Assembly: GCA_013216195.1 (NCBI GenBank) | Contig: JABSOQ010000007.1 | Span: 1 to 55,772 of the forward strand | Direction: 5' to 3' | Length of the DNA: 55,772 bases | DNA from: Bdellovibrionales bacterium | GTDB taxonomy: Bacteria > Bdellovibrionota > Bdellovibrionia > Bdellovibrionales > UBA1609 | In this document: positions 12,124 to 48,616 of the stretch, piece after piece | Position numbering within the stretch: the stretch's first letter is position 1 | Layout: each line of letters opens with the position of its first letter | Notes under the pieces: model-generated | Database searches by the model: none | Seen by the model: the letters and a program-made list of their open reading frames with translations, nothing else | Told to the model about the DNA's origin: nothing | Position numbers and translations under genes: made by a program

Positions 12124-12553
12124 CGCGTCCCCCCGGAAGCTTGCGCCCTTCAACTCACCCTCTCTAATTGCAACGGTGATTCCAAGCTTAGTGTGCGATC
12201 GCCACCAGTTAGCTATCTATAATCATTGAGGTCTCATTTTGATACGTAGGTTTTTGTTATCTACTACTGAGACAGCTGTTCAATTGTTTAACGGCAGACG
12301 TTGCAAGACTTCAGTCTGTGCTGTGGCATTCGGGTTGAGTCTAAAACCGTAGTTTTTGATTCGTGTTATTGGCATCAACATTGAATTTCTACAAGGTTGA
12401 TTACAAGAGATTCGAGAAGGGTAAAAGTTGGGGACATATTGAGTCCGTTCGAAGGCAAGAGTTGGGCATAAGGTCTCTGTCTCGAAATGAAATCATTGAT
12501 GTGCAATTAACGTAACGAAAGTTTGGAGAAACCAAAATACAAAAGGGGGCGCA
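12124..12553. other. intergenic region (430 bp) with one weak small ORF
   Basis: This is the divergent gap between the LamG/CXXCH gene and the hemerythrin gene and must hold both promoters; I could not pick clear hexamers. A 50-codon frame at 12363-12515 (GTG start, TAA end) has protein-like codons and a basic product but no ribosome site, so it is only a possibility. Confidence 0.35.
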
Positions 12554-22485: not shown

Positions 22486-22513
22486 AAAGGATAGGCTCCT
22501 TGGGTTTAAAAGT

Positions 22514-22610
22514 GGCCAGGCACCCCATAGCACATGTGGTCTTCGCTACCGTTGCTTCCTTCCGGACCTGGCGGGATTCACAAAGTCCGACATTGTATGG
22601 GACCCAGCCT
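22514..22610 (-). ncRNA. ffs: signal recognition particle RNA, small bacterial type (4.5S)
   Basis: On the minus strand the apical hallmark CCAGGTCCGGAAGGAAGCA is present, followed by ACGGTAGCGA: the GGAA tetraloop with its two symmetric internal loops, the Ffh-binding site. Flanking arms CCCATA and TATGGG close a single long stem. Ends are estimated to within a few bases. It binds Ffh and FtsY for co-translational membrane targeting. It sits 28 bp before dnaX, a frequent position, and the two are probably transcribed from one promoter. Confidence 0.95.
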
Positions 22611-25131: not shown

Positions 25132-26115
25132 TTACAGAGACCAAGCGATTCTCTCGAGAGCCTCAACCTCTTCAGCCCAATAGGTATAGTCGTGAAACTG
25201 TGGAAACAACTTAGGAAAGCTTGGGTCGGCCCAGCGTTTTGCGATCCAGCCTGCGTAGTGAATGATTCTCAAGCCCCTTAGCCCCGGAAACAAGTCAAAC
25301 TGTGACTCCGGAATCTCGCGAAGTTCATCGTACCCGGCTAACAAAGCCTGTTTCTCTTCATCAGCCATCTCTTGATCACCGCTAAACAGCATCCAAAAGT
25401 CTTGGGCCTCGGGCCCCATTACGCTGTCATCAAAATCTACAAAGAAAAAATCACGATCGCCCTCAGCGGTGTCGAGCTGAAGAAGATTGCCTCGGTGGCA
25501 GTCTCCGTGAATTCGAATAAATTCATCTGGCTCAAGGTGGTCTTCAAGCCAGTACAAGATGGTTTCGGCGGCCTTCTCGTACCGTGACCAGACCTCAGGC
25601 GCAGCAACGGCTTCGATGCGGTCGAGGGCTGGCCAGCCGAACTCCTCAGGTGTGAGGTCAGGCCGGCTTCGAAATTCATTTTGCGAGCCACAATTGTGCA
25701 ATCTTGCAAGCAGCCCTCCGACTTGCTTAAGCTGCTCTGGCGTCAGCTCTTGTGGCATTCTGCCAAAGCACTTTTCAAATATCGAAAAATTAAGGTCAGA
25801 GTAGCTTGATAGAGTCTTTCCGCCGACTTCAATGGGTGCAATAACTGGTATACCTTGGTGTTTGAGTTCTTGTTCAAAAAAGTGCTCTTCGTGCAGGGCT
25901 TTAAGCGACCAGCGATTGGGGCGGTAAAACTTGGTGATGATATGGCCCCCGAGCGCGTCGTAGTCTTTTGAAGTCGTTTCGAGAAAAACATCGAAGACTC
26001 GGTTCTCATAAGAATTGAGCTGCAGATACTCGCCAGTGGTGGTGTAGCCACATGACTCTATACCCTCCAGAACAACGTCAGGCGTAAGTTTGTAAAAAGA
26101 TTGATCTAAACTCAT
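25132..26115 (-). CDS. srkA: SrkA (YihE)-type stress-response Ser/Thr protein kinase (327 aa)
   Basis: This belongs to the APH/choline-kinase-like superfamily; E. coli SrkA phosphorylates Ser/Thr and counteracts MazF-linked death after oxidative stress. It shows the catalytic loop HGDCHRGN (203-210, Asp205 as base), the metal-binding VDFDD (226-230) and the following MGPEAQDFW, and the N-terminal LNSYENRVFDV typical of the family. The length is close to E. coli SrkA (328). The ATG at 26115 has little in front as a ribosome site. No dsbA neighbour, unlike in enterobacteria. Confidence 0.92.
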   Translation of the reverse strand: MSLDQSFYKLTPDVVLEGIESCGYTTTGEYLQLNSYENRVFDVFLETTSKDYDALGGHIITKFYRPNRWSLKALHEEHFFEQELKHQGIPVIAPIEVGGKTLSSYSDLNFSIFEKCFGRMPQELTPEQLKQVGGLLARLHNCGSQNEFRSRPDLTPEEFGWPALDRIEAVAAPEVWSRYEKAAETILYWLEDHLEPDEFIRIHGDCHRGNLLQLDTAEGDRDFFFVDFDDSVMGPEAQDFWMLFSGDQEMADEEKQALLAGYDELREIPESQFDLFPGLRGLRIIHYAGWIAKRWADPSFPKLFPQFHDYTYWAEEVEALERIAWSL

Positions 26116-26260
26116 CGACTATGACCTTAGCTCAAATTGCTTGAATTTGTGAGTTGAAATCGAAAACCGAGTCAGACAGGTAGAATATACCGGTAGTGTT
26201 GACACTTGACTCAGCTGGCGATGTTGCCAAAGGCCCTAGTGATGGGGCAATCTAGCAACC

Positions 26261-27031
26261 ATGGGTTTTCAGTTTTCGCTATTTTCAAATCTTAGGCTCG
26301 ATGAACATAAAGCCTGGTTGCAGTCTCTTGACCTTCAGGTCAAGAGAAGGGCCTATCAAAAAACGATCACCCTTCGAGTCGACAGAGTGGGCGGTGTACG
26401 TGTCGGCTGCTCGAAAACCTGCCCTATGCGAGAGGTAGAGCGTTTCTTGATCAAAAATCGGACTTGGATCGAAAAGAGTTTGAAAGAGGCACAGACGCAT
26501 CAGGCACGTTACCCTAAAAAGACGTTCTGTGATGGTGAGGAGTTTCTTTTTTTGGGTAACCGATTGAGGCTCAGGCATAAGCAAACAACGAAAGCGAAAC
26601 CAAGATTTGATTTTCAAAGTGGTGAGATGAGGCTGTCGCTAAGCCACAGAGGTTATGACTTGTCACAGGTCTCTGAGTATCAAAAGGCCATGGTCACGTT
26701 TTACAAGAGATCGGGGTCGACACTATTGACCAAAATGGTTGAAGAAAACGCTAATAGAATGGGGCTCAAGCCAAACAAGCTTAGTTTTAGGTCTCAAAAA
26801 TCGAGATGGGGTAGCTGTTCGAGCCAGGGTAACATCTCTCTAAATTGGCGATTGGTTTGTGCACCTGCTCGGGTGGCGAATTATGTAGTGATTCATGAAT
26901 TGGCTCATCTTCAACATCATGATCATTCAGCACGTTTTTGGTCTTTGGTTGAACAATACTGCCCAGAGTACAAAGCCTGCAAAAACTGGCTAAATCATAA
27001 TCAGTTCGAATTCGATTTCTTAAACGTTTAG
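26261..27031 (+). CDS. YgjP-like (DUF45/WLM family) zinc metalloprotein (256 aa)
   Basis: The C-terminal half has the family signature RWGSCSSQGNISLNWRL (about 182-198), then HELAH (212-216) with His222 of HHDHSARFW, giving a zinc site of the HExxH-plus-distal-His type. The N-terminal strands and the FLIKNRTWI segment fit YgjP. Biochemical role is poorly known; hydrolase activity is family-level knowledge. Start ATG 26261 lacks a clear ribosome site, and a hairpin around 26233-26255 lies just upstream. The radical SAM gene starts 56 bp after its stop. Confidence 0.88.
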   Translation: MGFQFSLFSNLRLDEHKAWLQSLDLQVKRRAYQKTITLRVDRVGGVRVGCSKTCPMREVERFLIKNRTWIEKSLKEAQTHQARYPKKTFCDGEEFLFLGNRLRLRHKQTTKAKPRFDFQSGEMRLSLSHRGYDLSQVSEYQKAMVTFYKRSGSTLLTKMVEENANRMGLKPNKLSFRSQKSRWGSCSSQGNISLNWRLVCAPARVANYVVIHELAHLQHHDHSARFWSLVEQYCPEYKACKNWLNHNQFEFDFLNV

Positions 27032-27087
27032 CCTGACTTCGTATCTTTAATAGACTGCTCTACACCTTCGGGTTGCATTGAGTTAAC

Positions 27088-28395
27088 ATGGTTGTAGTGA
27101 AAGACATTAAGCCATTTGCTGCACGTTCATCACAGAATCACTCCAGTACGCAAAACGAACTTAAACAACCCTGCACGAGAAAGTGGACAGACATTAAGAT
27201 CTCTGTTTGGGATGGTGTCGCCTCGGTTTGTGGTTTGGCGAAGCCAATTCAGCTCAACGAGCTGGTTGACCCACACAACAGCCCAGAGGTTATGCGAGAT
27301 AGGCTGAGAATGCTAAGCGGCTGTTGGCCAGCTTTGGGTAGAGGTTGTGAGGGGTGTCAGCGACAAGAGCAACTCGGCATAAAAAGCGAAAGGCAGAGGT
27401 CTGATGAATCGGTGGCGAGGCCTAACAAAGGCAGCCATATCGATAAACACCATTTCGATTCTTTGTCTGCAGAGCCTGAGAACTTAAAGCTGATGTTTCG
27501 TAACAAGTGCAATATGAAGTGTGTTTACTGTAGTTCTTCGAGGTCAAGCTCGTGGCAGATAGAGAACAGCTTGTACGCACCTGAGAATTCGCTAGTTAAC
27601 TTCGATACAGATTCGCTAAATGTGCGCGATGAAAAATACCAGCGGCACCTTGCCTTTACTTGGCGGTGGTTGAAAAAGCACTCGCAAAGCCTCAAATCAC
27701 TTCATATCTCGGGTGGTGAGCCTTTTTTGCAAAGCGAGGTCTGGCATCTGGTTGAGTACCTGACTGAGAATCCTCACCCTGAGCTCAAGGTCACAATAGT
27801 TTCAAATCTTCAAATTGAGTCAAAGAGCTTTCAGGCAGGTTTGCGTAGGCTCAGAAAGCTTAGAGAGGTGGTTGCTGGGTTACAGTTGATCTGTAGCATC
27901 GACTCCTGGGGAGAGCCTAGCGAGTACATACGTTTTGGGCATGAAGTCTCGCAATTCGAAAATAACTTTCAGCAGGTGCTCTCGCTTTCTGAAAAGATTG
28001 ATGTTTCAATTTCGACGACATTGACAGCATTGAATGTCAGTCATCTACCTGTCTTAACAGATCAAGTTTACCGATGGCTTCATAAAAGACAATTTGATTG
28101 GAGCTTCAAAAGGTGTAAAAGCCCTGCAAGGCTCGACCCAGCAGTTTTACCTGTTGAGATTTCTGAGCAGCCGATGCTGCAGACTCTTGCCGAGTGCGAG
28201 AGACTTTTTGGTGGGCGTGCTTGCATAAATGAGCAAAGAGAACTTTTTCTTGAAATACTCAATGAGCCTGAAAACCCAAGACTACTTTTTGCGCTTACTG
28301 AATACCTAAACGAGCTTGATACAAAGAGATCTACCAATTGGCAGGAGATGTTTCCATTTTTGGCAGGTCTGATTACTCCCATAAAAGCCAGCTGA
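27088..28395 (+). CDS. twitch/SPASM-like domain-containing radical SAM protein (435 aa)
   Basis: The AdoMet [4Fe-4S] cluster motif C-x3-C-x2-C is at Cys141, Cys145 and Cys148 (NKCNMKCVYC), and GGEP at 209-212 is the AdoMet amino-group motif. Before the core, Cys79, Cys87 and Cys90 with the flanking MRDRLRMLSG and QEQLGIKSERQ resemble the twitch auxiliary-cluster element of family members in which it precedes the TIM barrel. The substrate is unknown; no precursor peptide is recognised beside it, although the small exported protein at 28626 follows. The ATG lacks an obvious ribosome site. Two hairpins end the transcript. Confidence 0.85.
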   Translation: MVVVKDIKPFAARSSQNHSSTQNELKQPCTRKWTDIKISVWDGVASVCGLAKPIQLNELVDPHNSPEVMRDRLRMLSGCWPALGRGCEGCQRQEQLGIKSERQRSDESVARPNKGSHIDKHHFDSLSAEPENLKLMFRNKCNMKCVYCSSSRSSSWQIENSLYAPENSLVNFDTDSLNVRDEKYQRHLAFTWRWLKKHSQSLKSLHISGGEPFLQSEVWHLVEYLTENPHPELKVTIVSNLQIESKSFQAGLRRLRKLREVVAGLQLICSIDSWGEPSEYIRFGHEVSQFENNFQQVLSLSEKIDVSISTTLTALNVSHLPVLTDQVYRWLHKRQFDWSFKRCKSPARLDPAVLPVEISEQPMLQTLAECERLFGGRACINEQRELFLEILNEPENPRLLFALTEYLNELDTKRSTNWQEMFPFLAGLITPIKAS

Positions 28396-29132: not shown

Positions 29133-29154
29133 GTCAATTTGTGGGAAGAGCTTT

Positions 29155-30204
29155 TTATCTAATCGATTCGGCTTCCACCTTTTCAAACCAGCCCTGATAA
29201 ATGATATCGAGCTCTCGAAGCCGGTCTCTATTTATTAGAAGAGATTGATCAAATGGCCTTAGACCTCTCCTCATTTCGAAGAGCATTGGAACATTAATCG
29301 CGCGAAATTCTACAAGTGGAGACTCATTATCAGGCAGATGTAGGCTGTTCCTAAAAAGATCTCGACCCAAGGTGTTTAAGAACCTGTCGGCTCGCTCATC
29401 TTCAGATAAGGGTTCGAACCCGAGTTGCCTTAAATTAAGTAAGTAAGCTCTCGTTTCAATCATAAAATGAAACCATTGATACGGAATGACCCAAACGCCA
29501 GCCTCTAAGGTTGGCCGCAGAAGGTCTGGTGGGCGATAGCCCGATGCAATTCGGTCAGCAATTCTCATCAAATCAGCCACGTGAAGTAGTTCGTGAAAAA
29601 GCGTGCGGTTGAAGTCCGAAAGGTCATGTGTCATGTGCTTTGGGTTAAACAGAATGTCGAAGCTGTTCGAGGTAGCTCCAGAAGACTTGTCTCGGGCTAT
29701 TTGCAAAAATTCTTCGAAAACGTCTTGAGGCAGCTCGCCTTTATCGGGGTCGATCTTGTTTAAAACGAAGCCAGGTTGGGCTAGGTCAAATACAGTAGCT
29801 CCGAGGGCGGGCTCTAGGCCTGAGCCTGGTTTGGCATTGAGCTTGGGTTCAGGCAAAAATATTCTGATTTTAGAGAGGTCGGCTTTTAAGACAAGATAGC
29901 TAAGGGCTTGAACAAGGTTAGAGCGCTGATCAGTACTCATAAGTGCTTGTTTGAAGGTTTCGCTGATGTGGGCCCAGGTTGCACTTCTCTCAGTTGTTCC
30001 GTCTTGAGTGAGTACCTCTTCAAGGGTAGCGTACTCGACGGTTCCTTCGCCGGCGTAGTATTCGCCGACAACGCTCGCCGCACGAGAATCGCTGAGTTCT
30101 TGGCCGCAGGTGCTCACATTGCCAAAACCACTTTTGTAAAACAGCTGACCAGCCTCTGCGAGGCCAGAAAACAGAACTACGAAGGTGATGAAACAAAACT
30201 TCAA
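29155..30204 (-). CDS. exported putative zinc metalloprotease, HExxH type (about 349 aa)
   Basis: HELLH with flanking LFHELLHVADLM fits a zincin active site, and a Glu 42 residues after its second His, in ETRAYLLNLRQL, is a probable third ligand. The same layout occurs in the 36793 protein. I prefer the TTG at 30204: AAAGG lies 7 nt upstream and translation then begins directly with a signal peptide (KFCFITFVVLFSGLAEA-G); a longer frame from the TTG at 30246 is possible. No known peptidase family is recognised. It is divergent from the 30559-38064 operon across about 350 bp. Probably periplasmic or secreted. Confidence 0.7.
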   Translation of the reverse strand: MKFCFITFVVLFSGLAEAGQLFYKSGFGNVSTCGQELSDSRAASVVGEYYAGEGTVEYATLEEVLTQDGTTERSATWAHISETFKQALMSTDQRSNLVQALSYLVLKADLSKIRIFLPEPKLNAKPGSGLEPALGATVFDLAQPGFVLNKIDPDKGELPQDVFEEFLQIARDKSSGATSNSFDILFNPKHMTHDLSDFNRTLFHELLHVADLMRIADRIASGYRPPDLLRPTLEAGVWVIPYQWFHFMIETRAYLLNLRQLGFEPLSEDERADRFLNTLGRDLFRNSLHLPDNESPLVEFRAINVPMLFEMRRGLRPFDQSLLINRDRLRELDIIYQGWFEKVEAESIR

Positions 30205-30558
30205 CTTAAAGCCTTTCAAAAAATCTCCCACAAAAGCTCTATACAAGGGCCAGACCAGTTAGGCGGGGACATTGAAATCCAGGCTCCGCTAGGTCATTAC
30301 GGTAAGATAGAGCCTTTGCTTTGTGTAAGCCTTATCAGTCGATGGCAAAAATTGTCAGGCTTCTCCGGCTCGGGTGACCAAAAGGCGCGATAGGCCATTT
30401 TTTTCAGGGTCATTGGTCAACAAGCCCTATCTCAGTAGTGGCATTAATCTTGTAAATGTAGGCCACGATCAAAAGGTTTAAATATCAGGTAATTGCCTGA
30501 ACAAATTGGCAAAATCCCAGATTCAAGTATGAAACTGGTTATCGAGGAAGGTTGACTG
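30205..30558. promoter_or_regulatory. shared divergent promoter region of the two zincin-containing transcription units
   Basis: This 354-bp gap separates the leftward zincin gene from the rightward five-gene run. On the plus strand TTGGCA (30506-30511), 16 bp, TATGAA (30528-30533) is a fair sigma70 promoter ending about 25 bp before the 30559 ATG, which has GAGGAAGG as ribosome site. ATTGCC...GGCAAA around 30493-30512 is an inverted repeat overlapping that -35 and could be an operator. The minus-strand promoter was not found. Confidence 0.45.
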
Positions 30559-31527
30559 ATGCCATTTGCACTTCAGTTGGCGTTGATTGTATCAATGCTC
30601 ATCTTAACTAGCGTGACTGCTTTCGCCGAAACTTGCGGCGATTCAGATCTCTATCGGTCGCTACAGGCCGCAATTACAAAGCGAACCCAACTTGAAACCA
30701 CTATGCAAATGGTTTCGGCCGCAGATGAAGCCTTTGTTCCAGGGCAAGATTTACATCTAAGAATGCCGAGGGCTGATGATCTTCTTGTCATCGAAGACGA
30801 CTCTAGCGACAACCCCTGGCAAAAGTTCAAAGAATCGACTCGAGAGTCACTTTCTCAATTCGACAAACTCTACGGCGGAGCCATAGTCGAACAGCTCTAC
30901 AAACGTTCTATTGGCTATGAAAAAGATCTCGATCGAGACTATGTGTTGGTGTATCTGGGCCCGAGCACTAAGTTGTCTTTGATAGTGGCCACAGAAGAAG
31001 AGCTCCTGTCATTGAAAGCGAAAATTCAACAGGCCTACGAGGCTAGTGAAAAGCGGGTTGAAGACGATCCTGCGACCTCGCGAAACGCTTCGGGCTTGTT
31101 AAACGTGATTGATGGAATCATAGCTGACAAAAACTACATTTTGCCTTGCGAGGCTGAAAAGCTAAATGAGCTTCTTCTATCAGACAGCTTTAGCGAATCA
31201 ATTGAGCGCTTTTGCAGTGCCAGACATGAAGCCAACCGGCCGGTTGATTATGGCCCTATGTGCACTTTTGGAGCAGCCGAAGACCCGCCTAGATTTGTTG
31301 AGAGAGAGTCGATTTGTGCTCTTGAAAATGTCAATCGTAAGTCGGTGAGCCCTCTTCCTGAGTTCGAGGTTTCTGAGAGCTACTTGATGTTTATTTATGG
31401 CTACAAAGTGAGACAGCGATTTCATTTGCGAGTGCAGGGTCAGCAGGGCCCTAGAGGTTCAATACCTTTGAGTGTTCGACAAGATCTTCGATTTAGACTG
31501 TTTGGGAGGCTGAACAGTGTCGAGTAG
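30559..31527 (+). CDS. exported protein of unknown function, first gene of a five-gene run (322 aa)
   Basis: Signal peptide (MPFALQLALIVSMLILTSVTAFA, cleavage after 23). The mature protein is helical, acidic in the first half and contains several Cys (TCGDSD, LPCEAEK, FCSAR, MCTFG, ICALE) that suggest disulfides outside the cytoplasm. No family recognised. Its 3' end overlaps the next gene by 11 bases, so the two are translationally coupled. Confidence 0.75.
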   Translation: MPFALQLALIVSMLILTSVTAFAETCGDSDLYRSLQAAITKRTQLETTMQMVSAADEAFVPGQDLHLRMPRADDLLVIEDDSSDNPWQKFKESTRESLSQFDKLYGGAIVEQLYKRSIGYEKDLDRDYVLVYLGPSTKLSLIVATEEELLSLKAKIQQAYEASEKRVEDDPATSRNASGLLNVIDGIIADKNYILPCEAEKLNELLLSDSFSESIERFCSARHEANRPVDYGPMCTFGAAEDPPRFVERESICALENVNRKSVSPLPEFEVSESYLMFIYGYKVRQRFHLRVQGQQGPRGSIPLSVRQDLRFRLFGRLNSVE

Positions 31528-33511
31528 GTTTTGGTTTATAGTTCTTGTTATAATGTGTCTACCGAGCCTGGCGAATGCTCAGCTCGCTGGGGTTTATCAC
31601 TCTTTGCTAACAAGAACTGATTGCCCTCAGCAGGCGATAATTGAAACAGAGCAGGGCTACCGTAACTTCTTTCAAAACTATTCGAACGCACTGTTAGATA
31701 CTCAAGATAATACCTGCGACATCATTTTTTCTCTAAACATGACCAGCTACATTCGGCATTTGATTCTTGCTGACAAACAAGACGCCTACAATGATTTCTT
31801 TGGGGTGTTGGTAGACGAGTATGACAAGGCAGCTTTAGAAGACGTAGGGGCTGGCCGAGTTTGCGCTGAAGCAGGTGCAGATGGCAGCGTTCATGTTGAA
31901 AACATTCAGATCTGTCGATCTGACAGAATGGTTGAAGTTGCCGATATTGCGAACCGCGTTTGGTATGAGTTCTTTTTTAGAGAGCAGGCTCAGCAAAGCG
32001 CCTTAGGTAGCTCTTTTGTTACCCTCGGTGTGGGCGCTCTGTTTTATGGGGCCTTAGCTTATAAAATTAGTAACTTCCGCACCAAGATCACAAAAATAGT
32101 AAAGCACGTTAAAACCCTTATAAGGCGCCCACAAACTGTAACTGTCACTGGGCGATCTGCAGCTGTAGGTGGTGCTGTTGCCACCACTGGCGAAAAAGAA
32201 GTGGAGATTGTCAGATCAACCACTGATTACCCCTCGCCTATGGAGTACTTCAACGGCGATCGAACTCGAGCTCAGCGGGTTGGTGACAAACTCTACGGAG
32301 TTCTTCGAAATGGGCTTACTGGGTTTGCCAATTTTATCTTCTCATTTTCAATGCTCGTCACTGGTGAAGATGATCTTCTTTTCGAAAATGAGCAGCTGTT
32401 GGGCTATCAGATGTCGAGTGGTGCCGAAGAGGCGAGAGACATTTTAATTACTTTCACGTTCGCAATGGCTCCATACGTGCTGGGCGAGAAGATTGCTGAG
32501 CGCATTATGGGTGATTGGTTTACAGACAAAACCTTAGACCCACTGCCCGAAAACGCCTGTAGGTCGACTCTAGTAAAACGCAATTTTACGCGTGCAGGCC
32601 GATGGCTTGGCAGATTTGGTGTTGGCGTCGTAGCCGGTACTACAGCTGCGATTGGCTTGAACTTGACCGCTATCAGCGCTCTCGAGCGAAAGCAGTTCGA
32701 GATGAAAATCAACAATGCCTTTGCAGAGGTTGAGCGACTCAAAGCGCGAATAAGAGAGATCAACGACCCGACTGATCCACTAGTCTATCGGCTAACGCAA
32801 GAGCTAGTCGATTTGGCGACAGTGCAGTTGGTACCGACCCTTGTGGGCGGCCGAATGCTTGCTCTTGATAAGGTTAAAAAAGAGCACGAATCGAGCATGA
32901 TGTGCGGAGTGCTCAGTGATTATTATAGAGGCCGCCATCTCACGACAGATGTTGACCGTGAGAACAAGGCAAGACCTGTAGAATTTGAAGAAAAGGTAGA
33001 TGAGGTTTTTGCTAACGAAGTCACATCTGGCTACTTCGACCGAGGCTGGGGCCTGCTGATGGACACCTTGGCCTTCATTCGTGGTTTTGATCAAGAAGAG
33101 TATCATGGCTTGAAGACACCAATATACGATTTGCAAGACCAGCTACTCCACTACAGAACAGCCACGCGCTACAACCTGAGGCTGAGGGGCCGGCACGCCT
33201 TTGCAGTTGGCAAGTACAGCGGGCATGCTAGAGCTCTATCTGTGATCAAGAGAGATTATCAAGCGCCACCAAAAGGTGTGGTTGAGAATGTGACCGAAGC
33301 TGAATGGCAGTCTTTCTTTCAAGCGCAAGATCACTTCAACATGGCTAAAGAAGAGTTGGCTGATGATGATCTGGGCGTGAGCTGTTTACCTCTGTATTTA
33401 GATAAAGTGACTCACTACAACTTATTTTTTGACAACGACAAGTACCAAAGTCATGTGCCATGCAGTGTGAACCACCCATCGGTGAATGCAGAGTTTTGTA
33501 AAGCAAATTGA
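31517..33511 (+). CDS. membrane protein of unknown function, second gene of the run (664 aa)
   Basis: GTG start with GGGAGG 7 nt upstream, inside the end of the preceding gene. It has an N-terminal signal peptide (ending ANA-Q at 21) and then about four hydrophobic segments in the middle third (GVGALFYGALAY, FIFSFSMLVTG, ILITFTFAMAPYVLG, VGVVAGTTAAIGLNLT). A largely helical, charged C-terminal half follows, with Cys near the end. The layout implies an inner-membrane protein with large periplasmic parts. No family recognised; the 886-residue protein two genes on has a similar plan (signal peptide, central membrane pair, long soluble tail). Confidence 0.75.
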   Translation: MSSRFWFIVLVIMCLPSLANAQLAGVYHSLLTRTDCPQQAIIETEQGYRNFFQNYSNALLDTQDNTCDIIFSLNMTSYIRHLILADKQDAYNDFFGVLVDEYDKAALEDVGAGRVCAEAGADGSVHVENIQICRSDRMVEVADIANRVWYEFFFREQAQQSALGSSFVTLGVGALFYGALAYKISNFRTKITKIVKHVKTLIRRPQTVTVTGRSAAVGGAVATTGEKEVEIVRSTTDYPSPMEYFNGDRTRAQRVGDKLYGVLRNGLTGFANFIFSFSMLVTGEDDLLFENEQLLGYQMSSGAEEARDILITFTFAMAPYVLGEKIAERIMGDWFTDKTLDPLPENACRSTLVKRNFTRAGRWLGRFGVGVVAGTTAAIGLNLTAISALERKQFEMKINNAFAEVERLKARIREINDPTDPLVYRLTQELVDLATVQLVPTLVGGRMLALDKVKKEHESSMMCGVLSDYYRGRHLTTDVDRENKARPVEFEEKVDEVFANEVTSGYFDRGWGLLMDTLAFIRGFDQEEYHGLKTPIYDLQDQLLHYRTATRYNLRLRGRHAFAVGKYSGHARALSVIKRDYQAPPKGVVENVTEAEWQSFFQAQDHFNMAKEELADDDLGVSCLPLYLDKVTHYNLFFDNDKYQSHVPCSVNHPSVNAEFCKAN

Positions 33512-33557
33512 TTTTTTAATTTGACCAATTTTTAAAGTTCTACAAAAGGAGAAAAGA

Positions 33558-34124
33558 ATGAAAAGTTGGATGACAATAGTAGCCGCGGTTGTTTGCGCGC
33601 TATCAGTGAGTGCTGCGAACGCACAAGAATCAAACACGTTAACGTTTCAGATCGACCCTCAGTTTGGTATCGATCAGACTCAAACAGAAGCAGCGAGAGC
33701 TGTCGAAAGAGCTGGTATCACAGCTTCAGTTATTCTTTTGGGTTCTCGTTGTACTGGCGAAAGTGCTATCGACACATGGGCCAACAGAATTCTAATGATC
33801 GAAGCTGGTTCTAAGGGCGCGACTTTCGATCTTAACCTTCAAGGTATCGGTGCCGGTGCAATGATGGGTATGGAGACAATGGTTGGTGCTGTTCAGGTTC
33901 TTGAGGCTATCCGTGGTTGGAGAACAGACGGTAGTGATGTTGTAGCCCCATTCTGCGATACACTTTCTGGTCTAATGGTAATGTCTTATGGCCTAGAGCA
34001 CGGTAAGAACATGGACGCTGTGAAAGAGTCTTTGCGCACAGTTTACAACTTTCCAGAAGCTGCGGCTAACCGCGTTCAAGAGATCTATCAAAGTGTGGTT
34101 GGTCCTGCGGAAGTTGCAGAGTAA
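33558..34124 (+). CDS. small exported protein of unknown function, third gene of the run (188 aa)
   Basis: Strong ribosome site (AAAGGAG) and clear signal peptide (MKSWMTIVAAVVCALSVSAANA, cleavage after 22). The mature domain has two Cys (SRCTG, PFCDT), a Gly/Met-rich stretch (GIGAGAMMGMETMVGAV) and helical ends. Codons look optimised, suggesting that this is the most highly expressed member of the run (inference). The gap to the previous gene is 46 bp and to the next 5 bp. Confidence 0.8.
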   Translation: MKSWMTIVAAVVCALSVSAANAQESNTLTFQIDPQFGIDQTQTEAARAVERAGITASVILLGSRCTGESAIDTWANRILMIEAGSKGATFDLNLQGIGAGAMMGMETMVGAVQVLEAIRGWRTDGSDVVAPFCDTLSGLMVMSYGLEHGKNMDAVKESLRTVYNFPEAAANRVQEIYQSVVGPAEVAE

Positions 34125-34129
34125 ATAAT

Positions 34130-36790
34130 ATGCCTTTGTTCCGGCACATTGGATTTGCTCTTGTTGGGGTTTTATTAGGCGCAAGCCTTTTTACGACCTC
34201 AGCTGAAGCCCTTCCTGAACAGTGTGCCGGTGCTGACCCACAGCATTTTGTGGGTAATCACGAGAGGTCGCATTACCGGCGATCTCTTTCTTATATTGAA
34301 TCTCTCAATGAGTCTGAGCTGAACGCAGTTTATGCACGTCGCGATGAGCTGAGCCTCAATGTTTTTCAAGAAACGTCACTCGTTGGGCGTTTACGTTTCT
34401 TTCATAAAAAAGCTTCAGCGAATTATCGAATCAATTGTCTTCGAAATAGTTCGACTGATCTTGATTGCCAAATGAGTCTTGAGCCCCTGAGGGCTGGCTT
34501 GTTTTCTGAACTCACGTCATACCGTGCAATGTTGGCCGTCTCCCAGGGGCACGCTGGCCTTGAGCTACTTAGTGCTGGGTTCTCCTCGGTCAACTGGGTT
34601 GTGGCAAGACATATTAGGCAGCCAAAAGAAGCGAGAGCAAGGGGCACTCGCATATATATGGATCCTCTCAATGATGAAGAGGCTCAGCTCGTAAAAAGCC
34701 TATTTATTGAAAACGTTTTGAGACCTTTGGGATACCTTGAAGTCGGTCTTGATGGCCTTCAGCAGTTCTTGAATAGTTTTGATAGAGGGCAAATGAGACA
34801 GTACGGAGAGCGTATCTCTGCTCTGCAAGATCTAGCAAAAGATCGGTATGTTTCAGCAATGACGCGGTTTCCGCTTCTAGGTTTTTATAAATCCCATCAA
34901 AGCAATGACTCTCAAGCCCTGGTTGAAGCCTTGTCGATTCACAAAAGAATTGCAGAACGTCAAATGGGTCAAAGGCTCCGTCTAAGAAACCTCGTAAATT
35001 ACCCGACAGCATTGCTGGCTGATATTTTGGTGTCACGAGCGAACTCAGAAGACGATTGCCAAAACTTAGCAGCTCTTTTTAGGTCTGAAGAGAGAAGGCT
35101 CAGAAACAACGGCTACTTGCGGCTCACGGGCACTATTGTTGGATGTGGTCTCGCATTTGTTACCGGGGCTTGGCCCGTTTGTGCGGCACTCACTGTTTTG
35201 AACTCTAGCGCCTCAATTAGGCAAAGTGCTAGTCGCGTAAGGTCTTCGGTATACTGGCAGTATCTTGACCCTGAGAACCAAGATGAAATTGATCTTGTTG
35301 ATGCGATTCGTTCAGCTAAGGGTGACCTCTACCTCGAGATGGCTCTATCTGTTCCAATAACCTTAGGTTTAGGTGCGGCAGCCAAAGTTGCCACTACCCG
35401 GTTTATGACTTCGCGATTCTCAGCACCAGTTAGGCGGCTCTTTGTTAGAGAGAACAAAAAAGCCCCAAGAAGTGTGCTTGCACAAGCCTTGGTGGCAGAT
35501 CTACCAATTACTAGAAAGCCTATGCGCTATCTTTTTGGTGTCACACCTACGCAGTCGTTTTGGCCTGCTTCTATATTTTCTGTTGGTGTAAACATTGGCT
35601 TTACGTACCCAGAGGTTTTCAAAACAGCTGACAGGTTTATGAGGGTCAGACCAGCTTTGTTGGACCCAGATCACGAATATTACCCGTATTACGAAGAGAT
35701 GCGGCAAAGGCCTGTGGCCGAGGCGATGCCTTTTGTTAAAGAGACTCTGCCGATGATTGCAATGATACATCATGATCCCGCGCACTCTGATTTGAAGGCC
35801 GAGATTTTAAATGACCACCTTTCTTTGGTTAATATCCGTGCTCGGTTCCAGGAGAGAGAGGAGTTTCTGACTGAAATAGCTAATGAGCCCCGGACTCAAA
35901 GCCTTTACTTTGTTTTATACCGTGAGGGTAATATGGCTAGAGTGCGTGAGCTTAAAGCTTTGGCTCAGCAAGCCTACCGTGACTTTTATATGGTTGTAGC
36001 TCCTGCTCTGTTCGCAGCAATTGGTGACAGCTTTACCGAAGAAGAGATCGAGGTCGATTCGGGCTCGACTGATAGCTCTGTTTTGAAGCAAGTGCGTTTT
36101 TCTGCTGAAACCTTCGAGCTAGCTGCATTTTTAGAAAACGCCGAGGCCTTCAGGCAGGCGATTAGCAATCAGCCTGAGGTTCTGTACAACTTCGGGATGG
36201 AGCCAGAGATTTGGCTTTCTCTGACGGAAACTGAGCAGACAAAGCTCGCAATGGTTTGCGCTAGATATATGGCGCTTAACATTTTTCATAAACAGGTGTT
36301 CGAAGTAAAGGTACATGAGTACTTGCTAGGTGCCCATTTTGAGTTGGCACAATTAGCTCTTGTTCAAGCCTATAGCGATTTTGCTTCAACTCTGCTACCG
36401 AATCGTCAGAGTCGAGACGAGTTGCGAGGGTTCACTGGTACGGTCTTAGAGATATTCTCAAATGACTACACCGCTCAATCATACGCTATTGATGAAGACA
36501 CCAGGGTTCAAGAGTTGCCACCGACTCCACAACTTATGGGAATGCTGAATGATTTCTTTTTTGATCAGATGATTTTCGAAGTTAATGAGCTCAGTGAAAC
36601 GTCTGAGCCCCTTACGGTATACAAAGCGTGGAGCTCAGAGGGTGAATTGCTCGACAGAGATCAGTTGGACCTCTTCAGTATTAAGAGAAACCTCGATCCA
36701 ACCTCTAGACGTTTTTTCCTTCCAAACGGAGATGTCATAGGCTTCATGGAAAGCCTAAGACGTATGATTAGATACGAGATTGGTATATAA
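34130..36790 (+). CDS. large exported/membrane protein of unknown function, fourth gene of the run (886 aa)
   Basis: Signal peptide ends at about AEA-L (27). Residues 30-325 are helical and soluble with a few Cys (QCAG, INCLR, LDCQM). Hydrophobic segments lie at about 331-357 and 402-421 with a charged stretch between. The remaining 460 residues are helical and soluble. There is no HExxH or other catalytic motif. No family recognised. It starts 5 bp after the previous gene and is followed after 2 bp by the zincin gene. Confidence 0.75.
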   Translation: MPLFRHIGFALVGVLLGASLFTTSAEALPEQCAGADPQHFVGNHERSHYRRSLSYIESLNESELNAVYARRDELSLNVFQETSLVGRLRFFHKKASANYRINCLRNSSTDLDCQMSLEPLRAGLFSELTSYRAMLAVSQGHAGLELLSAGFSSVNWVVARHIRQPKEARARGTRIYMDPLNDEEAQLVKSLFIENVLRPLGYLEVGLDGLQQFLNSFDRGQMRQYGERISALQDLAKDRYVSAMTRFPLLGFYKSHQSNDSQALVEALSIHKRIAERQMGQRLRLRNLVNYPTALLADILVSRANSEDDCQNLAALFRSEERRLRNNGYLRLTGTIVGCGLAFVTGAWPVCAALTVLNSSASIRQSASRVRSSVYWQYLDPENQDEIDLVDAIRSAKGDLYLEMALSVPITLGLGAAAKVATTRFMTSRFSAPVRRLFVRENKKAPRSVLAQALVADLPITRKPMRYLFGVTPTQSFWPASIFSVGVNIGFTYPEVFKTADRFMRVRPALLDPDHEYYPYYEEMRQRPVAEAMPFVKETLPMIAMIHHDPAHSDLKAEILNDHLSLVNIRARFQEREEFLTEIANEPRTQSLYFVLYREGNMARVRELKALAQQAYRDFYMVVAPALFAAIGDSFTEEEIEVDSGSTDSSVLKQVRFSAETFELAAFLENAEAFRQAISNQPEVLYNFGMEPEIWLSLTETEQTKLAMVCARYMALNIFHKQVFEVKVHEYLLGAHFELAQLALVQAYSDFASTLLPNRQSRDELRGFTGTVLEIFSNDYTAQSYAIDEDTRVQELPPTPQLMGMLNDFFFDQMIFEVNELSETSEPLTVYKAWSSEGELLDRDQLDLFSIKRNLDPTSRRFFLPNGDVIGFMESLRRMIRYEIGI

Positions 36791-36792
36791 CT

Positions 36793-38064
36793 GTGGCAGG
36801 CTGGGGAAGAATTTTTTGTCTGTTGGTTTGGTTGCTGTGTTTGCCTGCGTTCGCCGACAACGTACCGAGATCTGTAAACGATCTATTCCCGGTCATGGTA
36901 CCACCGACTTGTACAGAGCTTCTGTTAGGTGCCGGTCGTAGCTTAGATTTGAACCAAGAATTACAAGACCTGAAATCGTTATCACAATCTGAAACTAACG
37001 ATTTAGTTTTTGAGCAACAGCTCGAAGCCTTCTTGTCGAAGTACATCATGTACGCTCGAAGCGAGGGTTTGATCTTAGAGTTCGCAGAAGACAGTCTCAC
37101 TACACTTCGGGTGGTACCCGATCAGTATGGTCACCCATTGGGTCAATTGGCCGCGCAGCTTGAGCCCTTCGGTTATGCTGTTTTATTTAAATCAAAGTTC
37201 TTGTTTGATAATAGCCTCGGTCAACTGGTGCATGAAGATAGAGTTTTGCACTTATCACCAGAGCTTCTTCTTAAAGACGGGGGCCTTTGGGAGGTGGTTC
37301 GGCACGAGCTTCAGCATCTCATCGAGAGCTTGCTCGATGATCTAGCTCGGGCACCCACTTTCTTTGGTATGCTACGATCTGAAAACGATGATCTGACCCA
37401 CGATAAGAACTTCTATGAAGACGAGTTACACCTCGATGAAATCAATGCTTACCTAATTTCGTTGAGATCACTTATTGAACAAGTTAAAGCGTTTGAAGCC
37501 TACTTTGAAACTCTCGATAGCGAATTTGACCGAGTTCCTGTTAGAAAAGTTATCGATGCCTTGGAAGAGCGCTTTGCTGTTACACTTGATCTGGCCATGA
37601 GAATTGCCGAGGCGGTCGAAGACAACCTCGAACAAGTTGATAAGGCTTTACAGCGGTTGTCAATTGCAAGGCTCTATGAGATCGATATGACAAGGCTTGA
37701 TGGCAAAGTAGTCGCGGTGGTCGACGATCTGGCGATTACATTAAAAGCATCAGAAGAAGGTGAGTTTTATACCGCCACCGTTCAGTATGCCAAGGGCAAG
37801 ACTTTCGAGACTCGAAAGTTTGAATTAACACAGCAGCAGGCTCATAGGTTCTTTAGGTCGAGGGTGACATCTAGGAGAGCTCTTCTGGTTCTAATTGCGA
37901 GAGTGGTAAGTCGTCATTTTAAGCCTATGCTTGAGTTTGCCCCGGTGATTACTGACTCTTTAGAGATCCTTCAAGAAGCTGCCGATGGGGGAGAGCAACT
38001 GCTGCAGCCGGCTTTTGAGGACACTCTAGAGGCCTTGCTGTCTGATTTGGGCATTGCCTACTAG
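36793..38064 (+). CDS. exported putative zinc metalloprotease, HExxH type, last gene of the run (423 aa)
   Basis: GTG start two bases after the preceding stop. Signal peptide (MAGWGRIFCLLVWLLCLPAFA, cleavage after 21). HELQH at 171-175 in WEVVRHELQHLIESLL is a zincin helix; Glu216 in DEINAYLISLRSL, 41 residues after His175, is a likely third ligand and matches the E-x-x-A-Y-L-x-x-L-R-x-L block of the divergent 29155 protein. The C-terminal 200 residues are helical plus a small beta part. No known peptidase family recognised; the shared zinc site suggests a new or divergent gluzincin-like group. Confidence 0.75.
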   Translation: MAGWGRIFCLLVWLLCLPAFADNVPRSVNDLFPVMVPPTCTELLLGAGRSLDLNQELQDLKSLSQSETNDLVFEQQLEAFLSKYIMYARSEGLILEFAEDSLTTLRVVPDQYGHPLGQLAAQLEPFGYAVLFKSKFLFDNSLGQLVHEDRVLHLSPELLLKDGGLWEVVRHELQHLIESLLDDLARAPTFFGMLRSENDDLTHDKNFYEDELHLDEINAYLISLRSLIEQVKAFEAYFETLDSEFDRVPVRKVIDALEERFAVTLDLAMRIAEAVEDNLEQVDKALQRLSIARLYEIDMTRLDGKVVAVVDDLAITLKASEEGEFYTATVQYAKGKTFETRKFELTQQQAHRFFRSRVTSRRALLVLIARVVSRHFKPMLEFAPVITDSLEILQEAADGGEQLLQPAFEDTLEALLSDLGIAY

Positions 38065-38234
38065 CGGCAGCTATCAGCTGAAAGTGACAAAAATGGGGGT
38101 CTGATGTCTTCAAATCAATTCTAGGCCCACTTCAGGCCTGCCCTCAGTGGCCTCACTCTTGCTTTTTTACACGGTTGGACGGTTAAGCGCCCAAGTTGCT
38201 CGTAGTACAGCTTAGCCGAAAATGAGGAGTCATC

Positions 38235-39926
38235 ATGTTCCAATTTGGTCGTATGTTGCGAGTGACAGTTGCTCTACCAGTGCTTTTCGCATTGGCGCTC
38301 ACGGCGTGTTCAAATGAAGAAACAAAGAGTCGTGGTCGAAACAAAGGCAATGACCCCAACCCCAGCGGGGCAGCCGCTGGCCCACCATCTGGTGGCGGAG
38401 ACACTAGCGAATTAGATGAAAGTGCTTTCGGTAAGCTACAGCCTGAAGGTGACCGCTTAATCGTACTTGACCCAAGAGATGGCACTGAACGAGAAACCAC
38501 TCTCGTTCGTGGCGGAGAGCGAACATTAATAACAGATTCAGGCTCAAGCGCTGTTTACAGAGATACTATTGGGCGCTCAACAGTGCCGGGTGCTTATGTG
38601 ACTCTCGAGGGAGCTGGTGGTGGCTTGATAGCCGACACCGACAGCCTTAGCCCTACAGTTTACACAGACTACGGCATTTCTAGAGTGATAGAGCCTGATC
38701 CTACTTATGTTCACATTCAGCCACAAGACCGTATGGATCCGATCTTAACTGGTGGTTTCGACCCGAACCCAGACACTGGAGTTTCTGAATTCGTTTACAC
38801 AGATTTTGGTAATGATCTGATTATGTACACTCTGCGAACTCTAGCAAACAGCTGGGGTAGCTACCGCGGCCAACCTATGGATATGGGTGCTAGCATTCGC
38901 GAGTTGATCGTTGAGCCTCAAGCTGGCTCGAATCAGGTAGTCGTTGCAGTAAAAATTCAAGCCGACGGTGTTTTTGGAGGTGAAGCTTTAGCAAACGGCC
39001 AGCGCATTTATCGAGTTGAGCTTGAGGGCACTATGAGCGCTCAAGGTCGCAGAATCACACTCCGTCAGATCTCAAACCCTGAAGAAGACGGCGGGTACCG
39101 TTTTCAAGCCTATGTCACATGTATGGACGTTGAGCTCGGAAGCTGCGACACCTCTATCGTTGTGATCGAGCAAATCAGTGAACACAATGAAATCTGCAAA
39201 CGTGGTATTGCTATCTACAGAAACATTGGTGCTCAATTGCAAATGGATGATGACCTATTCACCCAAGTGAACTGTGGTCAGTTTCCAGATCAGTACCCTG
39301 CAGCTAAGCGATTCTTGAGCTACATGGCTAATACTGTACATAGCTACAGAATTCGAAAGCGGGTCGCTGTGCCGGCTCAATGCTCGCCAGTAGACGCACA
39401 GGTGAAAATTCCCCACATGGAAGAAACGCGAGCAAGAAGCTTTGCCGCTGCCAATGGTTATGCCTTTGTGCATATCGAAGGTATCGAAAGCGATTACGAT
39501 TACACACGAGCAGACTTATTTGAACTTTCTGATGGTTCAAACCCAGCTGCCCACTTGTTTGATGATGCTCGTGATTGGTTTAGGTTTTGGGGTCAGCTGA
39601 AGCGTGACACACCTGAGACCAGCGAAGTTTTCAGGCACGAGTTGCGCTTCTATGGCGACAGCATGCCTCGCGGTGCCCACAGTGGTATGACCAGCCCAAT
39701 GGCGTCGACCATTTCACAAGCGGTGCTTGAAGGTAATGATGGCAGAGGTCACCTGAGTATTCTTCTTAATTTCACAGACGGTTACTCAACAGAGCTTGAG
39801 TTCTTAGGTATTAGCAAAAGGTATCTGTCTCCAGAGGGTATGCGATTTTACCCATTTCAGGGCCGAGAAGTGAGAGCGATAACTGAGTACCCTGTGCCGT
39901 TTCCAGAAGAGTTCAAAGGAATGTAA
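38235..39926 (+). CDS. outer-membrane or periplasmic lipoprotein of unknown function (563 aa)
   Basis: Lipobox LTAC with Cys25 as the acylated residue after a hydrophobic core; the next residues SNEE carry no Asp at +2. A Pro/Gly/Ser-rich linker (about 33-60) precedes a large strand-rich domain with Cys pairs (VTCMD/GSCDT, EICKR/VNCGQ) and a C-terminal part with many aromatic residues. No family recognised. GAGGAG ribosome site. It is 170 bp after the five-gene run with no terminator between, so it may be part of it or separate. Strong terminator at 39953-39981. Confidence 0.8.
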   Translation: MFQFGRMLRVTVALPVLFALALTACSNEETKSRGRNKGNDPNPSGAAAGPPSGGGDTSELDESAFGKLQPEGDRLIVLDPRDGTERETTLVRGGERTLITDSGSSAVYRDTIGRSTVPGAYVTLEGAGGGLIADTDSLSPTVYTDYGISRVIEPDPTYVHIQPQDRMDPILTGGFDPNPDTGVSEFVYTDFGNDLIMYTLRTLANSWGSYRGQPMDMGASIRELIVEPQAGSNQVVVAVKIQADGVFGGEALANGQRIYRVELEGTMSAQGRRITLRQISNPEEDGGYRFQAYVTCMDVELGSCDTSIVVIEQISEHNEICKRGIAIYRNIGAQLQMDDDLFTQVNCGQFPDQYPAAKRFLSYMANTVHSYRIRKRVAVPAQCSPVDAQVKIPHMEETRARSFAAANGYAFVHIEGIESDYDYTRADLFELSDGSNPAAHLFDDARDWFRFWGQLKRDTPETSEVFRHELRFYGDSMPRGAHSGMTSPMASTISQAVLEGNDGRGHLSILLNFTDGYSTELEFLGISKRYLSPEGMRFYPFQGREVRAITEYPVPFPEEFKGM

Positions 39927-39952
39927 GTTTCTCGGTTCTATATTTAGAAAGT

Positions 39953-39981
39953 AAAAAAGAGCGCCGAGGGCGCTCTTTTTT
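39953..39981 (+). terminator. strong intrinsic terminator after the lipoprotein gene
   Basis: AAAAAA, GAGCGCC-GAG-GGCGCTC, TTTTTT; a perfect 7-bp GC-rich stem. Confidence 0.93.
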
Positions 39982-40009
39982 ATTGGGCTTTACCAAACAA
40001 TGAGCTGTA

Positions 40010-40068
<59 letters not shown>

Positions 40069-40104
40069 GCAGATTCAAAGAGAGGGTCAACTTCCGGCGG
40101 CCGA

Positions 40105-40335
40105 TCATTCTTCTACCAGCTTAAATCGTGGAGTTGTTACTCCATTAATCTCTACGGTCTCCCCAAACATTTTGAGTGGGCGAACCCAGAGTTTGCCAAG
40201 TTCGTTTTCATAAAGACATTCATACAGCACTAATTCTTCAAGAGATTCACTGTGCCTGACCGTATCGATAACTTTATATTTCGGCCCTTTGTAATGCTGG
40301 TAAACTCCGCCAGCTACAATTTTAGAAGTTTGCAT
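40105..40335 (-). CDS. DUF1653 family protein (76 aa)
   Basis: A small cytosolic protein matching the DUF1653 pattern closely: G-x-Y-x-H-Y-K-G-x-x-Y-x-V near the N-terminus, then [16 protein letters not shown] and LWVRPLKMF. The function of the family is unknown. Strong ribosome site (AAAGGAG) before the ATG at 40335. Single-gene unit; no terminator seen before the heptamer array. Confidence 0.9.
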
Positions 40336-40590
40336 TTAAGCTCCTTTCAAAATCTTGGCTCAGTACGAGCTTATTGACCATGCTGAATTCAGTTGCAAGT
40401 CGAATTGCAGACACACAGAACATAATAAGCCGATTGATAATTGCTATGTGATTACAGCCTATTTGACGGGCACGTTGAGCGTTAAAGTTTGATTTTCACT
40501 ACAAAATTTCTTGATGTCGTAGTGTCACAGTGTGAAAATCTTTGCCAAGACTTTTACGGACAAAAGTCTAACAAGTCAGGTGGCGGGGAA

Positions 40591-41493
40591 ATGGATTTAT
40601 CTCAAAGTAAAAACTCATTGCTCATAAATCAGCTAAACAAAAAGCCTGTGCTTAGCACTTACACAGACTACCGACGCTACCTACATGACTTCTACAACTT
40701 CAAACGAATTCAGACGTCTCAAAGTGTTCGACCTTATGCTTATGCTGATTTTGCTGCTGCAGCGAATATTAAGTCACCAAACTACTTAAAGCTAATTATT
40801 GATGGTCGCCGTAACCTCTCAGCGCAAATGATGACCAAGTTTTCGAAAGCTCTCGGTCACTCAAAAGCAGAGGCTAATGAATTTGCAGCGCTTGTGAAGT
40901 ACAGCCAAGCGAAAACGCCTGCTGAGCGCAACCAGCATCTGAAGGTCTTGGCCGATATTCGCGTAGAAAAGCAAATCAAAGAAGGTCAACTTCTCTCGAC
41001 TGACTATGAGAAAGTGCCGAGTTGGGTAACTTGGGTTCTTCACGCGATGACCGATCAGAAAAATGTGAAGTTTGATGTTGAGAGTTTGCGAAATATCATG
41101 CGAAACAAGGCATCAGAAGAGGAGATCAAAACAAGCCTCAATGGTTTGGTTGAGCGTGGTGAAGTTCAAATTGCAGAAGACGGCTCTGCTCAGAAGGCTC
41201 GCGAAGTGATGAGTGGCCGTGAGAACGTACCGGTAGAGCTCATTAGAAAACTTCAAGCCGAGTTGATCTATTTAGGTTTAGAGTCACTATTTCAAGATCG
41301 CCCCCAAGACAGAGAGTTTGGGGCCATGACGGCTTCTTTGACAGAAGATGAGTTTGATCAATTGAAGTTTGAGCTCAGACAGCTTCGTAAAAAATGGAGT
41401 AAGAACTTTTCAGTGAACCGACACCAGGCCAAAGGCGACAGAGTGTTTCAGCTGAACATTCAGTTGTTTCCAATTACAAAAGCGACACGCTAA
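40591..41493 (+). CDS. TIGR02147/DUF4423 family regulator-like protein (300 aa)
   Basis: The family is known mainly from Fibrobacter, Bdellovibrio and relatives, and is thought to be regulatory. Typical features: an early TDYRRYLHDFYNFKR segment, an HTH-like region (YADFAAAANIKSPNYLKLIIDGRRNLS) followed by MTKFSKALGHSKAEANEFAALVKYSQAKT, and the C-terminal DUF4423-like helices (LTEDEFDQLKFELRQLRKKW). I chose the ATG at 40591 (AGGTGG 7 nt upstream) over an upstream TTG whose added residues look non-coding. No terminator is seen; a possible structured RNA follows at 41563. Confidence 0.85.
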   Translation: MDLSQSKNSLLINQLNKKPVLSTYTDYRRYLHDFYNFKRIQTSQSVRPYAYADFAAAANIKSPNYLKLIIDGRRNLSAQMMTKFSKALGHSKAEANEFAALVKYSQAKTPAERNQHLKVLADIRVEKQIKEGQLLSTDYEKVPSWVTWVLHAMTDQKNVKFDVESLRNIMRNKASEEEIKTSLNGLVERGEVQIAEDGSAQKAREVMSGRENVPVELIRKLQAELIYLGLESLFQDRPQDREFGAMTASLTEDEFDQLKFELRQLRKKWSKNFSVNRHQAKGDRVFQLNIQLFPITKATR

Positions 41494-47700: not shown

Positions 47701-47912
47701 GGGCAGATGAGTTTATTATTCCGATGACACTTGCTATGGCTTGGGGCCTAACGAGTGGTACTGTTCTGGCGCTACTTTGGGTGCCGTGCGCCTATGCCAT
47801 TACAGAGGATATGGCTGCTGCATTTGCTAATCTCATTGGCAAGCCTAAGGACCTGCTCAATAGCGGCTCTAGTGGCTCTCATGGTACGCAGTCTTTAGGG
47901 GGAGTGAAGTGA
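44757..47912 (+). CDS. RND-family efflux permease, AcrB/HAE1-like (1051 aa)
   Basis: A proton-driven inner-membrane pump of the resistance-nodulation-division family. Full length with twelve membrane helices and two large periplasmic loops in two repeats. N-terminal TM1 is followed by ETFPSVDIGSVVITTNYPGAS. The TM4 proton-relay motif is MLVDNAVVISENV, with Asp399 at the place of AcrB Asp407 and Asn at 408. FGGEGERTQESF marks the second half. No membrane-fusion adaptor (HlyD/AcrA type) gene is next to it. The substrate cannot be predicted. The gene overlaps the TetR gene by 4 bases. Confidence 0.95.
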   Translation: MTMAKFFIDNYKFTIVLMLGLMLYGCMGAIGLNSETFPSVDIGSVVITTNYPGASAEDMESKVTKPIEDEIRGVRGLKEVKSVSQEGLSRIVTVVDIDNYDVKEVVADVQRAVDRTPNLPVDLPNPPNFFEVKSEEFPVIEVAVIGSNEGRSRDEIAYELSEELEDNKKISSINLTGYRERQFNILINKQKMQDLHVSIEEVAGKIRTQNINIPGGNLETGSALKKVKLEGKMKSVEDLENLVIRSNFSGEKVLLGDIATIEDGEEDADTLARYEGTSATIVTIAKKGGADIITLAGEVRDVLKIFEEKYEGQAEFLIFNDEGKRVGNRIDVLTSNGQAGLILVVILLLVFLPGRIGLMSSLSLPLAVLAVFGYMSSVEMTLNTINILALVISLGMLVDNAVVISENVARLMDQGMAAREAAIKTISTLWLPITATAFTTIAAFLPMLVTQGVIGQFIRGIPILVTAALIFSLGESFFLLPVRLLIAKQKSKEEVANQTEDWFTINAIKPFGTFVEWLVNRRYIATVLFLGLIGGSIFMIGFVNKFILFPASQTEIYTVRLEMPEGTRIEKTDEMLGVLIQELRNNVGDEALHIAGKVGISEQDFGDPKSKRGENVGIAFIFMTEEAKNSRVTNEVLKQLRTIKIDGVKDLSFSAAINGPPIGDPVTAVFRSNNVENLDVVTDIIMKKLGETEGVFDIQLDDVFGADEKSVELDQVKAGRLGLDFRSVGFAVRMAIAGEILEEVNIDNKDVNYFIRFKESGRQTLDDLKNIKIADRRGNLIPLSEVATIREKKANPQIKRFDFKRAKTVTANINDDIITSVEANAIVGKTFEGIKDQYKDVSLKFGGEGERTQESFASLMQALVLSLIGIFALLVFLFKSYIRPVIILTTIPLGLVGVAIAFWVHQRPISFLALIGVIGLGGIIVNSGIVLISFIEQLRLENPDRDLTSILKEAASLRLRAVVVTSLTTVSGLLPTAYGIGGADEFIIPMTLAMAWGLTSGTVLALLWVPCAYAITEDMAAAFANLIGKPKDLLNSGSSGSHGTQSLGGVK

Positions 47913-48571: not shown

Positions 48572-48616
48572 AGCCATGAGCCATGAGCCATGAGCCATGA
48601 GCCATGAGCCATGAGC
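48571..48616. repeat. perfect 7-bp tandem repeat, unit GAGCCAT, 6.6 copies
   Basis: Six full heptamers plus GAGC, beginning at the last base of the TetR stop codon (TAG). The array is not translated. It has the same period as, but a different sequence from, the array at 40012-40067. Confidence 0.95.

Follow-up and report, generated by a model that had tools for sequence, protein, structure and literature searches.

Genes A to F, at positions 29155–38064 of the 55,772-nucleotide (nt) stretch of Bdellovibrionales DNA analyzed here (the window), encode six predicted exported proteins that form one block, and this block is an accessory insertion of about 9 kb relative to two relatives. Within it, the adjoining genes E and F are probably the split form of a protein that elsewhere is a single chain, in which a cysteine (Cys)-containing hydrophobic hairpin, the Cys-hairpin module, precedes a zincin. 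We tentatively propose, with a little less than even confidence, that A–F is an accessory cassette for a split polymorphic exported effector, in which E would insert into a membrane and F would be the protease. The E–F pair hints at an undescribed way for these bacteria to act on other cells.

Genes E and F and the Cys-hairpin family

By its sequence, F is a member of an exported zincin family that is spread through the phylum and is absent from Pfam. A profile seeded with three sequences (F, L009, and L015) and searched in 369 genomes of the phylum matched 26 places in 22 of them, and F matched a zincin profile built without it at an E-value of 3e-18. Most members begin with a signal-like N-terminus and share a domain some 115 residues long, in which an FDP..L segment and HExxH are followed by DE[IV]xA[YH] 35 to 55 residues further on; in zincins, two histidines and a later glutamate are expected to bind zinc. 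An F-like match in G007 (L014/L016) was dropped because it lacks HExxH. The first-pass annotation had placed zinc metalloprotease-like genes at both ends of the block, and HExxH is indeed found in its first and last genes (HELLH in A and HELQH in F). Since a bare HExxH motif is weak evidence of a protease, the claim stands for F through its family, and A is a candidate only. The HELLH and ETRAY motifs of A lie at a spacing similar to that of the F family (hhalign P 0.0015–0.0023); HExxH decoys score equally, which leaves A a doubtful member. It could be another protease, of divergent sequence.

The hairpin is found together with an F-type zincin in L070, a 1536-amino-acid (aa) exported protein in which a central glycine-rich hairpin is followed by the zincin and then by EndoU (PF14436, 6e-11). 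When the L070 hairpin region was searched against the phylum, large exported proteins of 17 genomes were matched. A module profile made without E has matches in 15 genomes of the window's order, and an iterated search, also without E, gave 77 open reading frames (ORFs), several of which are overlapping copies of one locus; a wider profile that includes E finds members in 76 of 330 phylum genomes. The module consensus reads PxxAxxxC...GGxxVGGxLxxTGxGAxxG, Cys and Gly being nearly invariant, and members are built from a signal peptide, a long N-terminal part, the central hydrophobic hairpin, and a C-terminal extension. No Pfam family fits the module, which has scattered weak matches to membrane-hairpin families (DUF726, RTX, holins, and SseC). 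No description of the family was found in a literature search whose coverage mostly excludes subscription journals.

This is a module family with interchangeable C-terminal domains, either fused to the module or encoded by the next gene. A zincin lies C-terminal of the module in one chain in L070, L159 (4e-11), L194 (1e-6), L175 (3e-4), and L091 (hhalign, 6e-6). Other members carry behind the module a PARP domain (L160; 1e-5, just below the curated cut-off), a papain-like Peptidase_C1 (L172, 1.5e-6), or a weak HD domain (L105), and L162, whose own module match is weak, has Ppx/GppA (1e-23). A kinase-like domain is fused in L100 and belongs to a separate exported gene in L106, where it overlaps the module gene by 13 nt (E-value 1e-22). 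Similarly, an exported J-domain protein (PF00226, 6e-18) overlaps a 515-aa module gene by 10 nt, as a genus-wide pair. Fusion at one locus with adjacency at another is the usual sign of functional coupling.

Some further features of these relatives can be recorded. The module/J-domain pairs lie at L126 7997–10254, L104 8875–11120, and equivalent loci; a Sec-exported J-domain is odd, as there is no obvious periplasmic Hsp70 partner. The 1644-aa module protein at L091 8503–13437 has successive kinase-like repeats, seen by eye, before its zincin. Effector-less short module proteins (L104, L103, L102, L096, L106, and L124) have a Cys near the C-terminus, as in GVCR, KACKL, GQCRL, or VPC. Two candidate module–zincin fusions (L058 and L055) were set aside with their module unconfirmed, and a fused J-domain in L092/L097, with an HPDK/HGDK motif only and an E-value of about 0.03 at best, was not counted.

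E is likely to be a Cys-hairpin module protein because of its hhalign ranking, its architecture, and the zincin gene 2 bp downstream. In hhalign, aa 310–427 of E align along the entire module of 125–150 columns, with the Cys residues superposed and TG falling near TG, at P from 9e-4 to 3e-4; one alignment at 3e-4 spans aa 310–415. Among 602 non-member ORFs, E ranks first, with a score of 31.6 against 21.0 for the runner-up, and it also exceeds 150 hydropathy-preserving shuffles (best shuffle, 25.8); in a set of 226 ORFs that have central hydrophobic segments, the sole proteins to outscore it are module hits themselves. E also shares the layout of the members, from the signal peptide and the long N-terminal part through the central hydrophobic hairpin to the C-terminal extension. 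E-like matches in G037, G042, and G045 proved to be a TPR lytic transglycosylase and were dropped. C was also tried as a second module protein and rejected (P 0.027–0.069 over 12–30 columns only).

Relatives of the genes of the block were sought in related genomes, the order, and the phylum with full-length E, C, and F and with the joined B-C-D-E proteins. B, C, D, and E have no relative at an E-value of 1e-3 or below in the 369 genomes of the phylum. A peptide-pattern scan of 84,980 species with E and a scan of viral contigs, both of which reach close relatives only, found nothing, and a plasmid search and a second scan of genome contigs likewise found no relatives. B, C, and D are unexplained exported partners.

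The A–F insertion and its neighborhood

What sets A–F apart beyond chance is that the genes are missing, as a single block, from the matching locus of two relatives. In G002, of the same genus, A–F are absent: APH kinase and YgjP come first, then the homologue of gene 28626, the DUF4423 regulator, and lastly the homologue of 38235. G006, of another genus in the same family, keeps the gene order of the window between 15692 and the resistance-nodulation-division (RND) pump; there, about 105 bp separate the homologues of 28626 and 38235, whereas the window has 9.1 kb with exactly A–F in it (Table 1). The block is therefore an accessory insertion relative to these two genomes, and loss of A–F in the relatives is the less likely alternative. 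The composition and codon usage of A–F are host-like, with no signal of foreign origin, and no tRNA, repeats, or mobile-element mark was found at its edges. From this we infer that the event was old or drew on a similar genome.

This insertion bears out the first-pass annotation in treating the genes as an undescribed exported cluster that acts as a unit. Its gene positions, the 11-nt overlap of B and C, and the gaps of 46 nt (C–D), 5 nt (D–E), and 2 nt (E–F) were reproduced by the ORF coordinates; a hydropathy check likewise recovered the hydrophobic, signal-peptide-type N-terminal stretch in all six proteins and the central hydrophobic segments in C and E, and none of the six has an above-threshold match in Pfam, NCBIfam, or PHROG, as had been supposed. 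The divergent spacing between A and B, put at about 350 bp, is roughly right: the likelier start of A is an in-frame TTG at 30219, preceded by GGGAG, which leaves about 340 nt to B. A strongly hydrophobic N-terminus also marks about 45% of the remaining genes in the window, so the six-of-six exported run is only a modest enrichment (about 1%). The idea that D is highly expressed has a good ribosome-binding site as its sole basis.

Table 1. Coordinates of genes, domains, and the insertion in the window
Feature	Position	Strand	Description
Gene A	29155–30246	−	exported protein; HELLH at 29581–29595, ETRAY motif further on
Gene B	30559–31527	+	exported, 322 aa; no relative detected
Gene C	31517–33511	+	exported, 664 aa; central hydrophobic segments; module profile test failed
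Gene D	33558–34124	+	exported, 188 aa; good ribosome-binding site; no family
Gene E	34130–36790	+	exported, 886 aa; probable Cys-hairpin module protein; central hydrophobic segments
Probable Cys-hairpin module of E	35057–35410	+	aa 310–427, hairpin about aa 333–361; hhalign, rank 1 of 602
Gene F	36793–38064	+	exported predicted zincin, 423 aa; 2 bp after E
Zincin domain of F	37129–37464	+	aa 113–224; HELQH 37303–37317 (aa 171–175), DEINAY 37435–37452 (aa 215–220)
Insertion extent relative to collinear G006 locus	29133–38234		flanking-gene comparison

Several observations concern the surroundings of the block. A Twitch-domain radical SAM gene (27088–28395; NF033640, 6.5e-66) lies between YgjP and 28626 and is not at that place in G002 or G006; it would be a second gene gained or moved at the same spot. 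The pair formed by 38235 and the DUF4423 regulator (38235–41493) is inverted in G002 (L023 and L024 joined, 25203–28170) with respect to the window and G006, so the locus rearranges. Between gene 38235 and the regulator (40489), there are eight perfect copies of CTACTGC (40012–40067), the number of which could vary. The regulator itself, a DUF4423/TIGR02147 protein, is no more than compatible with an assignment of the DNA to Bdellovibrionota. Further off, a 7-bp array of GAGCCAT (48571–48616, 6.6 perfect copies) begins at the last base of a TetR-type gene (47909–48571), and the Small SRP RNA is at 22511–22609 (RF00169, 69.7 bits). A 967-aa exported protein with no Pfam match (9250–12153) has CLSCH, a possible heme attachment site, near its C-terminus and a LamG-like stretch seen by eye.

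How the block may act

We suggest a plausible mechanism for E and F. E would be exported via Sec, and its hairpin, combining the Cys with a glycine-rich stretch, would be able to enter a membrane. F would be a zinc protease, exported on its own and with its production matched to that of E, as the 2-bp gap suggests; together, the two could amount to a split version of the single chain seen elsewhere (signal peptide, long N-terminal part, hairpin module, and zincin and/or other enzymatic domain). E may then enter the membrane of another cell, either prey or competitor, and position or pass the effector, while F may cleave target proteins or free an active fragment of E. Membrane insertion, the target cell, and the protease activity of F are all deduced here from sequence. 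Dependence on ATP, RNA, or Hsp70 is an established property of several of the partner domains, and the periplasm of the producer is without all three. Because these dependent domains sit behind signal peptides, their action would be expected in the cytosol of another cell.

The route by which proteins of intracellular predators reach the prey cytosol is an open question, and Sec-exported hairpin proteins with RNase, ADP-ribosyltransferase, papain, zincin, kinase-like, and J-domain partners are concrete candidates for such delivery. The hairpin family occurs in about a quarter of the sampled phylum genomes and is in no Pfam family. It could even be that Cys-hairpin proteins are a phylum-wide device that enters the prey inner membrane and carries fused or next-gene effectors into the cytosol, with E–F as an acquired protease version; we consider this broad form unlikely. 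In any case, the split E–F pair lets the hairpin part and the enzyme be studied apart.

A number of results weigh against a split effector. By HMMER (hmmsearch), E is not significant (0.04 per 1000 sequences), the profile built without E did not recover it in its own genome, and P rises to 0.0037 against the MAFFT alignment A5. The C-terminal 450 aa of E match nothing, and single-sequence structure models were too poor to use (pLDDT, the predicted local distance difference test score, 34 for E and 44 for F). A double-Cys subfamily joining E with L120 and L176 of the same order was attractive by eye, and the comparison failed. Most F-family members are stand-alone genes, and the 515-aa module protein and its J-domain partner are kept across one genus (12 genomes), which suits housekeeping as well as a weapon. 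Finally, no immunity gene was recognized in the gene contexts viewed, in which no systematic search was made.

Chief among the rival readings is an envelope complex belonging to the producer, which we regard as rather unlikely. E and C would sit in the inner membrane, B and D would be periplasmic, and A and F would be periplasmic processing or quality-control proteases, with no other cell involved. The export signals in all six proteins, the central membrane segments of C and E, and the housekeeping-like conservation of the J-domain pair all suit this idea, but the block is accessory, since genomes of the same genus and of the same family lack it at the corresponding locus, and B to E are without relatives in the phylum. 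Moreover, the EndoU, PARP, and kinase-like domains on module relatives have no evident periplasmic task in the producer. A conserved multi-part envelope assembly, as first envisaged for these genes, is unlikely: the relatives of F mostly stand alone, and the A–F gene order, sought across the phylum, occurs in no searched genome besides the window. With the homologues of F mostly scattered, the outcome that would speak against the first-pass assembly is partly seen for F. The recurring association is instead that of the probable hairpin module of E with a zincin, fused in several other genera.

Alternatively, A and F could be secreted digestive enzymes that degrade prey or environmental proteins, with E, C, B, and D as co-carried cargo or surface proteins and the module likeness of E accidental. 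The mostly solo relatives of F and the HMMER result for E agree with this. E nevertheless tops the 602 and the 226 controls, and the zincin encoded 2 bp after it has relatives with a module fusion in at least five genomes; such a double accident is improbable, and so, in our view, is the digestive set. A conflict cassette against the producer's kin, with F (or A) as toxin and B or D as protector, would suit an accessory insertion with small exported neighbors of no known family (B and D), but it is very improbable: an immunity-like domain was found in neither B nor D, and no immunity gene was recognized beside the relatives.

Comparison with known systems

The module family recalls the polymorphic toxins described by Zhang et al. 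(2012, PMC3482391), among which EndoU is included and HExxH zincins occur both just before the toxin domain and as toxins. As in these systems, a constant exported N-terminal region is combined with interchangeable C-terminal enzymatic domains, a feature that the module family has, although E itself is without a recognizable C-terminal domain. In contrast to polymorphic toxins, no RHS or filamentous-haemagglutinin repeats, no type VI or type VII secretion system markers, and no recognized immunity gene were seen with the module family, and an exported effector is often encoded on its own, directly behind the module gene. Bdellovibrio is not mentioned in the text of PMC3482391, which was searched for it. 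The PVC-metallopeptidase of the same paper is a zincin that comes after the trafficking part and ahead of the toxin domain, like the L070 zincin before EndoU; its signature, however, is HExxHxxQ-E, whereas F has HELQHLIE with DE[IV]xA[YH] 35 to 55 residues on and so does not carry that signature.

Closer at hand, stand-alone exported zincins of the same phylum (such as L009, L015, and L054) share with F the HExxH...DE[IV]xA[YH] domain and a signal peptide. Unlike F, these three are solo genes with no adjoining hairpin-module protein. As for the hairpin, membrane-inserting ones that are likewise hydrophobic and rich in glycine occur in other exported proteins, namely the RTX N-terminal domain (PF02382) and the type III secretion system translocators (SseC/AopB). 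The module gave isolated weak matches to them (RTX, 2e-5 in 1 of 49 members; SseC, 0.01; AopB, 0.014); none of the three is matched family-wide, and the AopB match is gone with a 49-sequence profile. What sets the module family apart from the RTX, SseC, and AopB hairpins is its nearly invariant Cys together with its TG turn.
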